From Candidatus Iainarchaeum sp. (GTDB lineage: Archaea; B1Sed10-29; WALL01; JAGHAM01): DNA of 64,000 nt. The notes below the pieces were generated by a model, which was not told the DNA's origin, did not search any database, and saw nothing but the letters and a program-made list of their open reading frames with translations. The stretch spans positions 13,062 to 77,061 of the forward strand of contig JAGHAM010000004.1 of assembly GCA_021161465.1 (NCBI GenBank). Reading direction: 5' to 3'. Numbering within the stretch: position 1 is the first letter of the stretch; the number at the start of each line of letters is the position of its first letter. Both the position numbers and the translations under genes were made by a program. This document shows positions 277 through 44,845 of the stretch, piece by piece.

Positions 277-315
277 CTGATTCTCACTAATAACTGGCAA
301 GCTGGGGTGGCGGAA

Positions 316-376
316 GTTCACGAGCAGGCAAGCTCGAGAAGTTCAGTTCACGAGCAGGCAAGCTCGAGAAACGCAA
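316..376 (+). other. D-loop insertion in tRNA-Ser, with a tandem repeat
   Basis: About 61 extra bases between the start of the D loop (GAA, 313-315) and its conserved GG (380-381). A 25-base unit occurs twice without change (316-340 and 346-370). Each copy can form the hairpin CGAGC/GCTCG. The exact ends are not certain. Confidence 0.7.
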
Positions 377-401
377 TCCGGTTCAACGCGCCGGCCTCGA
401 G

Positions 402-632
402 TAGCCGCAAAATCGGCTAGCGCTTTAGGCGTCTCACGCTCCGCGTGAGAGCACCAGGTGTGGCCGTAAAATCGGTTCACGCGAACCGTAAAATCGGTTC
501 ACGCTTTGGGTGTTGCGCTACGCGCAAGCACCAGGCGGATGATTAAGGACTTAGTCTAAACCTAAGTGAAAAATAACAGGTGCTAGACTTTGTCCAAGTG
601 CCTTACGCTATATGTAAGGCAGGCATCCTGAA
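402..632 (+). other. 231-nt anticodon-loop intron of tRNA-Ser
   Basis: It sits at the canonical 37/38 position, between G401 and A633. It is unusually long and built from hairpins and repeats: CCG(T/C)AAAATCGG occurs at 405-416, 464-475 and 486-497; an 18-base unit is repeated exactly at 464-481 and 486-503; and two related modules (about 419-458 and 501-535) each have a hairpin followed by GCACCAGG. A 7-bp hairpin GCCTTAC/GTAAGGC lies near the 3' end. No long open frame for a homing endonuclease is present. Confidence 0.75.
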
Positions 633-663
633 AGCCGGTGGGCGCAAGCCCGTGCAGGTTCAA

Positions 664-692
664 ACTGTTTCGTCTCCGTATGAAACAGGAAA
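664..692 (+). other. 29-nt T-loop intron of tRNA-Ser
   Basis: Removing these bases restores the T loop TTCAATT. The intron is essentially a hairpin, CTGTTTC/GAAACAG, and ends in GGAAA. Because exon and intron both have A runs at the junction, the cut could shift by one or two bases. Confidence 0.75.
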
Positions 693-731
693 TTCCTGCC
701 CCCAGCGTACCCTTCAACAAACATGTATACA

Positions 732-18097: not shown

Positions 18098-18186
18098 AAA
18101 GAAATCACCATTTGTTCCAAATTTTGCAGTTTATTCTTAATAAACCTGCTTCGCTTACACGTAGTAAAAAGGGCCGCGGCCGGGAA

Positions 18187-18241
18187 TTTCCTACCCAACT
18201 CACAATCGTGTGTGGGGTTAGGAGGGGCGCAGCCCCTCTTT
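18187..18241 (-). other. 55-nt T-loop intron of tRNA-His
   Basis: It follows A58 (18242). Its first 29 bases (18241-18213) match the first 29 bases of the anticodon-loop intron of the same gene at 28 of 29 positions, including the hairpin AGGGGC/GCCCCT. It ends in GGAAA like the Ser and Ile T-loop introns. The junction may slide by one or two bases. Confidence 0.8.
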
Positions 18242-18261
18242 TTGAACCCGGGCCAGGGGAT

Positions 18262-18348
18262 TTCTGCAAGATGCAGGATTATCGTCTACCCCCCATAGAT
18301 GGATTGCGTAGCAATCCTCTGGGGTTAGAAGGGGCGCAGCCCCTCTTT
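18262..18348 (-). other. 87-nt anticodon-loop intron of tRNA-His
   Basis: Between G37 (18349) and A38 (18261). It begins with the 29-base module shared with the T-loop intron (18348-18320), followed by a GGATTGC/GCAATCC hairpin and a TGCATCTTGCA hairpin near the 3' end. Confidence 0.8.
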
Positions 18349-18420
18349 CCACAGTCCCCTATACTAGCCAGGCTATACAACCGCAGCCATAGGTTAATTT
18401 TTAGAACAAGGTTGTTTAAA

Positions 18421-38099: not shown

Positions 38100-38748
38100 A
38101 ATCTTTCATAATGTTTTCCGTGAAGGCAACAAACTTTACACAAAGAACTTAGTTCCTGGGCAACGGGTTTACGGAGAAAAACTTTTGGAAACTGGCCGGG
38201 GAGAGCTGAGGGAATGGAACCCAAACAGGTCCAAGCTGGCTGCGGTGATACTAAAGGGCTTGAAAACGTTTCCACTCAAGCAAGATTCAAAGGTGCTCTA
38301 TCTCGGTGCTGCCCAGGGAACCACTGCATCACACGTTAGCGATGTAGTGGACAAAGGTTATGTTATCTGTGTTGATGTATCCTCTAAGGCTATGGAGGAG
38401 CTGATACCTCTGTGCGAATCCCGCCAGAATATGCTTCCGGTTCTTGGAGATGCTAACAGGCCTGGAGAGTATGCTAAGTATACTCTTGGAATTAATATGA
38501 TTTATCAGGATGTTGCCCAACCAAACCAAGCTAAAATACTGCTAAAGAACGCTTCACTGCTTGATCCAGGGGAGTACGCTATCTTATGTATTAAAAGTAG
38601 GTCAATAGATGTTGCAGAAGACCCAAAGAAAATCATCAAAAAAGAGTTGGAATCCGTTTCTGATGGTTTTTTTGTGAGAGAGGTGATTGACCTCGAGCCA
38701 TACCACATGGACCATGCACTAGCTGTGTGTGAGAAAAAACTTAGTTAG
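38092..38748 (+). CDS. flpA: fibrillarin-like rRNA/tRNA 2'-O-methyltransferase
   Basis: 218 residues from ATG 38092 (a GTG at 38083 is an alternative), overlapping the last codons of nop5. S-adenosylmethionine-binding class I fold: 'VLYLGAAQGTTASHVSDVV', acidic end of strand 2 'VICVDVSSKAMEEL', and 'NMIYQDVAQPNQAKILLKNA' with the conserved catalytic Asp and Lys of fibrillarin. Methylates the 2'-OH of target RNAs under guide RNA control. Overlaps the convergent Dsb-like gene by four bases. Confidence 0.95.
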   Translation: MNEIFHNVFREGNKLYTKNLVPGQRVYGEKLLETGRGELREWNPNRSKLAAVILKGLKTFPLKQDSKVLYLGAAQGTTASHVSDVVDKGYVICVDVSSKAMEELIPLCESRQNMLPVLGDANRPGEYAKYTLGINMIYQDVAQPNQAKILLKNASLLDPGEYAILCIKSRSIDVAEDPKKIIKKELESVSDGFFVREVIDLEPYHMDHALAVCEKKLS

Positions 38749-39710
38749 GCCAGGTTATAGTCAATTATGCGCTTCATCATCACGAAGGGCTGTGCTCCAC
38801 CAATCAAGCTATCACCGATGTAAAAGGAGGGGGCTACTATGGCTCCTTCTTTTATTGCCAGCTGGTAGTCTCCCTGTACTGTGCTTACCTTTTCCCCGTT
38901 TCCAAAGCATGTGTTGAACTCTTCCATATCGAGACCAACCTTCATAGCATAGCTCTTTAAGTCTTCGTCAGACAGTGCATCCTTCAAAGATTCTGGATCC
39001 CAGTTATCATAAAGCACATCATGATATTCCCAGAATTTACCTTGGTCATAAGCGCATTCTGCTGCCTCTGCTGCCCTTTCTGACCTAGGGTGTATGCTTG
39101 TGAGCGGGAAGTTGATGAATACATATTTTGCCTTGCCAGTGTCAACATAATCTTTTATGATTTTCTTGTAGGTTGTTCTGTAGAAGTTCCTGCAGTATGC
39201 ACAGTCGAAATCACCAAATTCAACTATCGTGAGCTTTGCTGACATATTTCCCTTTATGGGCTGTCCATCAAGGTTTATCTTCGATGGCGACAGTTCAGGT
39301 GTCATTAAAACAAAGTATATCTTTTCTATCTTTAGGGTTCTGTCATCCACCCTGACTTCTATAATCTTTAGGCCTTCGTTTGTTTTAGCTTCATAGTCTA
39401 CAAGCCATTTGCCATTAGCGAAATTGTATCTGGTATTTTTTATTGAACCGCCGTATCTAAGGCGTGTCAGAGTACTTAGCACAAGATGGTTCACATCATT
39501 ATTTGTCCTTATTGGAAGGATTATGTTGGAAACAGACGAGGAGGGCACATTCATGTTGCATACCCTCTCCTCTTTTAGCACTTGACTGGTTCCAGCAAGT
39601 ATGCCAATCATCAGGGTTGCTGAGATAAATACAATTATCAAATACCATGTTCCCGGAGGTATATCCCATGGACATTCTTCGCTCAGCAACTTCTTGAGCT
39701 TTTCCATCAT
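38745..39710 (-). CDS. membrane-anchored DsbA-like thiol oxidoreductase
   Basis: 321 residues. The start must be ATG 39710 (or 39707): a longer open frame to 39791 runs into the 3' end of tRNA-Ile (39731). One N-terminal membrane segment ('TWYLIIVFISATLMIGILAG'), a beta-rich domain, then a thioredoxin-fold DSBA domain: 'VEFGDFDCAYCRNFYRTTY' (CAYC active site), 'VFINFPLTSIHPRSERAAEAA' and cis-Pro loop 'AIVAPSFYIGD'. It probably makes or shuffles disulfides outside the cell, fitting the Cys-rich lipoproteins in this window. Confidence 0.85.
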   Translation of the reverse strand: MMEKLKKLLSEECPWDIPPGTWYLIIVFISATLMIGILAGTSQVLKEERVCNMNVPSSSVSNIILPIRTNNDVNHLVLSTLTRLRYGGSIKNTRYNFANGKWLVDYEAKTNEGLKIIEVRVDDRTLKIEKIYFVLMTPELSPSKINLDGQPIKGNMSAKLTIVEFGDFDCAYCRNFYRTTYKKIIKDYVDTGKAKYVFINFPLTSIHPRSERAAEAAECAYDQGKFWEYHDVLYDNWDPESLKDALSDEDLKSYAMKVGLDMEEFNTCFGNGEKVSTVQGDYQLAIKEGAIVAPSFYIGDSLIGGAQPFVMMKRIIDYNLA

Positions 39711-39745
39711 GTTATTACTCCATTTGTAGGTGGGCGCGAAGGGAC

Positions 39746-40066
39746 TTTCCACCCCAATAGGGGGTTTGAGGCGCACCAACCTTCCCTGCACACATGGATT
39801 TGATAACCTTCTATCTCCATGCAGGTACCCTCTGCAGGGTTAGAGGTTCGTCCAGACCATAAGTCTAAACGTGTGCACCCTTTTCTTCCTGCGTATCGGG
39901 TGGCCTCGTGCCACCCCTGCAGGTTTAGAGATTCGTTCTAGACTGTAGGTCTAGAACGGGTGCAACCCTCCTGGTGCAACCAATCTTCCTACAATCGGGA
40001 TACGGATGATATTCCATCCCCATGCAGGTTTAGAAAGGGTGCAACCCTCCTGGTGCAACCAATCTT
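39746..40066 (-). other. 321-nt T-loop intron of tRNA-Ile made of four units
   Basis: It reads as four concatenated units that each begin with AAG and end near GG: 40066-39988 (79 nt), 39987-39888 (100 nt), 39887-39784 (104 nt) and 39783-39746 (38 nt). The first 30 bases of units 1 and 2 are identical (40066-40037 and 39987-39958). Each of the first three contains a variant of TTCTAAACCTGCA. No open reading frame of note. The boundary of unit 1 is exactly the 5' splice position deduced from the tRNA fold. Confidence 0.75.
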
Positions 40067-40087
40067 TCGAACCCTCGGCCTCAGGTT

Positions 40088-40122
40088 ATCCTCAGCCACG
40101 CTGAGTGTACCAGAACGGGCCT
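40088..40122 (-). other. 35-nt anticodon-loop intron of tRNA-Ile
   Basis: At 37/38. It contains the hairpin CTCAGC-GTG-GCTGAG. The junction may shift by one base because A37/A38 are flanked by A. Confidence 0.75.
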
Positions 40123-40180
40123 TATAAGACCTGCGCTCTGACCTGGCTAAGCTACGCGCCCACATTTATGGTTTAGCGCT

Positions 40181-44607: not shown

Positions 44608-44659
44608 TTTAAACTACATATACTAAAATTTTAGGGCGGACGCGTAGCCTAGCCAGGAT

Positions 44660-44691
44660 TGTTCCGTGGCAACAGCTCATGGAATCCTGAT
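44660..44691 (+). other. 32-nt D-loop intron of tRNA-Arg
   Basis: Its removal gives the D arm GCCTAGCCAGGATAGGGC. The intron contains TTCCGTG paired with CATGGAA (one G-U). Introns here are rarer than at 37/38. Confidence 0.75.
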
Positions 44692-44729
44692 AGGGCACCG
44701 GCCTTCTAAGCCGGCTATCGGGGGTTCAA

Positions 44730-44789
44730 AATAAGGAGGAGGGACACGTTCCCTCCTCCCTTATAAGCCCTTCTCCTTTGCGAGTGAGT
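44730..44789 (+). other. 60-nt T-loop intron of tRNA-Arg
   Basis: It occupies the same position (after base 58) as in the Ser, His and Ile tRNAs. The strong purine/pyrimidine hairpin covers most of it. The junction may slide by a base. Confidence 0.75.
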
Positions 44790-44845
44790 TTCCCTCCGCG
44801 TCCGCTTCTTATTGTTATTTAAGTTACAATGAACAAAATAACATT

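Follow-up and report, generated by a model that had tools for sequence, protein, structure and literature searches.

The 64,000-nucleotide stretch of DNA analysed here (the window) comes from Candidatus Iainarchaeum sp. and contains a tRNA-Ile(UAU) gene whose T-loop carries a predicted intron over four times the length of the tRNA that it interrupts. Among named genomes, the best match to the ArgS protein of the source genome (42%) bears the label Aenigmatarchaeota, so that the source is likely to be a DPANN archaeon, probably one of the Aenigmatarchaeota. The origin and spread of tRNA introns is an open question, and this locus puts it in a concrete form: from what was so long an intron built, and how could it be removed so that a tRNA results? 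We think it likely that this intron, at position 59/60, is made of four head-to-tail, diverged modules of a kind that has spread through most tRNA T-loops of the genome, that it grew on its 5' side, and that the endonuclease EndA would excise it in one step.

A tRNA-Ile gene with two introns

Neither ARAGORN nor Rfam matches the unspliced gene. When both introns (35 and 321 nt) are removed in silico, a canonical 75-nt tRNA with a full cloverleaf results, which ARAGORN identifies as tRNA-Ile(tat) (Table 1). An earlier note, made from the letters of the window alone, had proposed a 321-nt T-loop intron in tRNA-Ile, and the spliced product bears it out. The limits given there (39746-40066) have the right length and leave an equally valid 7-nt T-loop, but they lie 1 nt away from those that we set by the motif TTCRAR^...GRR-AN^T (40065..39745). 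We prefer the latter because the other T-loop introns of the genome follow this motif; its 3' part fits 31 of 34. The note had also called the intron far longer than is typical for archaeal tRNAs, in agreement with a review that gives less than 100 nt (PMC4033280), and had stated that it encodes no protein. The sequence is consistent with this: the sole long open reading frame that overlaps the intron (38745..39791) does so only via an upstream GTG ahead of its likely start (MMEKL).

Table 1. Features of the tRNA-Ile(UAU) gene, with positions in the window
Feature	Positions	Strand	Basis or remark
Pre-tRNA-Ile(UAU) gene, 431 nt	39731..40161	minus	in-silico splicing and ARAGORN; mature tRNA 75 nt; 7-bp acceptor stem GGGCGCG/CGCGCCC
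Anticodon-loop (37/38) intron, 35 nt, relaxed BHB (bulge-helix-bulge)	40088..40122	minus	ARAGORN i(40,35) and BHB scan
T-loop (59/60) intron, 321 nt	39745..40065	minus	splice sites TTCGAA^A and GGAAAG^T; motif recurs in orthologous introns of 3 relatives
Hairpin adjoining the 3' splice motif	39750..39773	minus	candidate inner helix at the splice site
Unit 1, 79 nt	39988..40066	minus	frame of the earlier note
Unit 2, 100 nt, with extra hairpin	39888..39987	minus	
Unit 3, 104 nt, with extra hairpin	39784..39887	minus	
Unit 4, 38 nt, degenerate	39746..39783	minus	in no other tRNA of the genome
30-nt repeat, copy 1	40037..40066	minus	
30-nt repeat, copy 2	39958..39987	minus	
Inserted hairpin of unit 2	39934..39958	minus	CGTTCTAGAC..GTCTAGAACG
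Inserted hairpin of unit 3	39849..39871	minus	CGTTTAGAC..GTCTGGACG

Two kinds of self-splicing intron, group I and group II, were considered and rejected, as no catalytic intron model of Rfam matched the window or the tRNA locus. More generally, no Rfam family reached its gathering score in the 64-kb window, and around the tRNA even a cutoff of E = 10 gave none that was relevant.

TiaS would act on an isoleucine tRNA of the CAU type; we did not detect it in the genome, and the same search was positive in 4 control archaea. The tRNA-Ile(UAU) is therefore probably needed for AUA codons. This bears on the suspicion that the locus is a decaying tRNA gene, or that its array is an artefact of assembly. 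The source genome is a 976-kb draft (40 contigs, 93% complete) of metagenome type, and several of its contigs (C20, C25 and C34) break in similar arrays, as an artefact might lead one to expect. But the locus is interior to a 77-kb contig, the units differ in sequence, the exons form a perfect cloverleaf, and a tRNA that is probably essential should not be decaying, so we regard decay or artefact as very improbable.

The units and their kin in other tRNA genes

The division of the intron into four units, which was also first proposed from the letters alone, holds up: each of them begins with AAG, and their ends read GG, GG, GGG and GGAAA. The 30-nt repeat that was said to head units 1 and 2 is indeed identical in the two, and the similarity extends to 44 nt at 93%. 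Judged by sequence, a single two-hairpin module underlies all four units, which are diverged copies of it arranged head to tail. In hairpin 1 we counted 11 two-sided compensatory cells, as against 3.9 in shuffles (0/500), and the folding of the whole pre-tRNA, compared with shuffles, gives z = -7. Such conservation of structure could mean that the chain has a function of its own, for instance as a structured small RNA that is freed by splicing. We consider this quite improbable: the chain has no Rfam match; between tRNAs there is free variation in the number of copies, in which hairpins are present and in length; and conserved folding would be equally expected if it merely kept the splice sites close.

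Much of the intron recurs in other tRNA genes of the same genome. It has 77 identical nucleotides in common with the intron of tRNA-Gly(CCC), in a run that crosses from unit 1 to the head of unit 2 (shuffled maximum, 11), and it is 94% identical to one tRNA-Ser intron over 148 nt. Its last fifth has no match in the other tRNA introns of the genome. A core sequence, GGGTTGCACCCTTTCTAAACCTGC, has 15 occurrences in the genome when up to 3 mismatches are allowed, nearly all of them in tRNA T-loop introns, and the introns that bear it begin directly after TTCAAA or a close variant. Because the core recurs so often, and because of the folding score of the pre-tRNA, chance is excluded as the source of the array.

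From pattern and similarity hits at the loci that we fetched, we compiled at least 34 T-loop introns, two of which belong to tRNA-Ser variants that share one known 5' half. All of them lie at 59/60. The shortest (13-29 nt) hold at most one hairpin, those of 49-67 nt mostly consist of hairpin 1 and hairpin 2, and those of 106-197 nt mostly comprise 2-3 units; above these stand a 264-nt intron, in the longer of the tRNA-Ser variants, and introns of 318-321 nt. A second sequence family (family B, ATAAGG...CCTTAT) follows the same plan, in which hairpin 1 is joined by AA to hairpin 2. Uninterrupted T-loops were found in tRNA-Tyr, initiator tRNA-Met and one tRNA-Pro. As we read these sequences, a module that comes in two families fills site 59/60 in most tRNA genes of the genome. 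Both signs by which transposed introns are recognised are present: near-identical introns occur in non-homologous tRNAs, and the same element occupies two positions (37/38 and 59/60) of tRNA-His.

These interruptions explain why a standard search sees so few tRNAs in this genome. At E <= 0.001, the Rfam tRNA model finds 8, versus 13 to 44 in 18 relatives. Our first search, with a D-arm pattern, gave almost no matches, because most D-arms differ from it or are interrupted. The tRNA-His(GUG) gene (18173-18387, minus strand), which the tRNA finders missed, has the shared hairpin element twice, once in the anticodon-loop intron (18321-18341) and once in the T-loop intron (18214-18234). In tRNA-Arg(UCU) (44636-44805, plus strand), there are a D-loop intron and, in the T-loop, one of family B that is about 60 nt long. 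In the tRNA-Ser(CGA) gene (301-707, plus strand, about 407 nt), the D-loop has an insertion that includes a tandem repeat, the T-loop a clean intron of 29 nt, and the anticodon loop an array of more than 200 nt that belongs to a third repeat family (AATCGGTTCACGCTTT...). Contigs begin or end inside tRNA intron arrays of this third family (L038 171-256, L040 171-236, and L012), and such arrays thus probably cause breaks in the assembly. A hairpin pair resembling one intron unit also lies outside any tRNA, just past a tRNA 3' end (L001, minus strand).

How the chain may have grown

Many tRNAs have the upstream parts of these introns in common, while the last fifth is for the most part particular to one tRNA. 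In most introns, a hairpin adjoins the 3' splice site, while its distance from the 5' site ranges from 0 nt in the 29-nt tRNA-Ser intron, which has a clean bulge-helix-bulge, to 292 nt in the intron of the window. Taken together, these observations suggest that modules were added on the 5' side.

As to how units multiply, one tRNA-Leu intron contains a tandem duplication that is exact (period 54 nt, run 62 nt). Two tRNA-Ser introns differ by one unit (83 nt), and the ends of this difference fall within a direct repeat of 19 nt, a pattern expected of recombination or slippage; this is the one clear gain or loss of a unit that we saw. The two 3' halves concerned (L010 and L011, on C25 and C34) have T-loop introns of 181 and 264 nt and are followed by different DNA. 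Only one 5' half (C20) was found for them, and they may be two genes or a strain variant. Blocks shared between introns often end within an intron and not at its 3' splice site, which is a poor fit to clean insertion of whole introns. The DNA mechanism that we infer as the best fit is copying from gene to gene and then recombination at the repeats; reverse splicing could be another route of spread.

The orthologous tRNA-Ile(UAU) genes of relatives give the chain a setting. Their T-loop is uninterrupted in 5 relatives (G002, G003, G006, G010 and G014) and holds an intron of 13 nt in G004, 49 nt in G001 (a relative of the same family) and 50 nt in G009, by lengths counted by eye. These three introns are unlike the window's in sequence, yet the end GAA-AN^T is present in them too. 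In several of these relatives the next gene after the tRNA encodes a membrane protein. With orthologs that are intron-free or carry only short introns, the long chain is a local expansion, specific to the lineage of the window. The exact core had no match in 84,980 other species genomes or in IMG/VR, and the family B pattern was found in none of the relatives outside the source genome. A looser search of 60 relatives, in which the core could have up to 3 mismatches, gave one match, in G008, beside a tRNA-Leu gene rather than inside it. There (L064 1-420), the tRNA-Leu gene has no interruption, and after it comes repeat-rich DNA that holds incomplete tRNA 3' ends and a single core hairpin.

We therefore propose a history in which the T-loop site held a short ancestral intron of about 13-50 nt, as persists in the same tRNA of relatives. 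Modules would then have been added 5' of it, and these may have multiplied via recombination between repeats and copying between tRNA genes. A more far-reaching idea, which we find rather doubtful, is that the tRNA introns are a proliferating site-specific element, so that whole introns were repeatedly added at a T-loop splice site that was already occupied, and the resulting chains are cleared by a plain alpha4 endonuclease. If this were true, accretion would offer a direct view of how introns have recently been gained and enlarged.

Proposed removal of the chain and comparison with other archaea

Each module seems to form a closed pair of hairpins, so that the chain would loop out and the T-stem could still form. 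Most probably, EndA would then cut once at each of the two outer sites (TTCGAA^A and GGAAAG^T), which would free the 321-nt chain whole, and a ligase, expected to be RtcB, would join the exons. Both removal in vivo and its one-step order are what we infer from sequence. A strict BHB scan of the pre-tRNA found the motif only at the anticodon intron, and inspection showed that the 5' strand of the T-stem has no pairing partner in the sequence past any internal border. Without an internal motif or a partner for that strand, a single excision is expected.

Could each unit instead be a separate intron that has splice sites of its own, the units leaving in turn? The earlier note had suggested such a twintron-like array, formed by repeated insertion of one small element into itself. 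The unit borders all read GGAAG or GGGAAG, which resemble true 3' ends (GRR-AN^), and the authors of tRNAscan-SE report that some archaeal tRNA introns have to be gone before the BHB of a neighbouring one is able to fold (PMC8450103). But the strict scan finds no BHB within the chain, no outer helix could form at the internal borders, and the units stand in tandem, none of them nested in another or interrupting it. We thus keep the chain of related units and their repeated addition from that proposal and give up self-insertion; removal of the units in succession seems unlikely to us. Two narrower candidates were also dropped: hairpin 1 as a BHB intron in itself was rejected by inspection, as its flanks do not pair, and nested splice sites are unsupported by the strict scan.

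Excision of the chain in one step has points against it as well. At the T-loop splice site, the central helix (TTC/GAA), the 3' bulge (AG^T) and the adjoining inner hairpin are present, but the chain occupies the place of the 3-nt 5' bulge, which is thereby expanded, so that a strict BHB is incomplete there, and alpha4 endonucleases are reported to be strict. The minimum free energy fold of the intron does not by itself reveal the splice site. In favour of the proposed looping out, the T-stem has a probability of 0.90 in the folding ensemble with the window's intron versus 0.50 with shuffled introns; but as 17% of the shuffles reach 0.90, this is not significant for this intron alone, and the test fails in the arginine introns.

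We found one EndA gene in the genome (PF01974; C16:15155-15415, L065, minus strand). Its 170-aa product is of the alpha4 type and aligns over its length to the M. jannaschii-type EndA 1a79, with no insertion that could be an extra loop (CSL or ASL). A second subunit may be missing from the draft. Reviews tie noncanonical tRNA introns to endonucleases that have an extra loop (PMC4090602, PMC4033280, PMC12397907), and this genome challenges the rule that archaea rich in such introns need one. In ARMAN-2, which likewise belongs to the ultrasmall archaea and has relaxed, noncanonical tRNA introns, the relaxed substrate range is explained by a special loop of its epsilon2 endonuclease (PMC12397907, PMC4033280), whereas the EndA found here is without such an insertion.

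Our search of the open-access literature gave no report of tRNA introns stacked in multi-unit T-loop chains and no match for twintron or nested archaeal tRNA introns. In Caldiarchaeum, heterogeneity of a tRNA-Thr intron shows intron gain as a polymorphism within one natural population (PMC3293823), which recalls the two tRNA-Ser variants of our genome, but the gain in Caldiarchaeum is linked to a 1.8-kb recombinase element. Atabeyarchaeia and Freyarchaeia also have most of their tRNA genes interrupted (92-95%), many at noncanonical sites (PMC11291895); they are an Asgard lineage, and the passages that we consulted mention neither a dispersed element family nor a tandem array. A close parallel is found in the transposed tRNA introns of Thermoproteales, where near-identical introns occur in unrelated tRNA genes (Fujishima et al. 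2010, as cited in PMC4090602 and PMC4033280). As far as those citing accounts go, these introns also occupy canonical and noncanonical sites and proliferated within one lineage. In contrast, one site (59/60) dominates in the window's genome, its arrays have multiple units and reach 321 nt, and its EndA is of the alpha4 type, while that of Crenarchaeota is a heterotetramer. Intron transposition among archaeal tRNA genes is thus already known, and what is new is the multi-unit T-loop array: a single genome offers a graded series at one site, from 13-nt introns to four-unit chains, and its relatives offer the orthologous loci with short introns or none.
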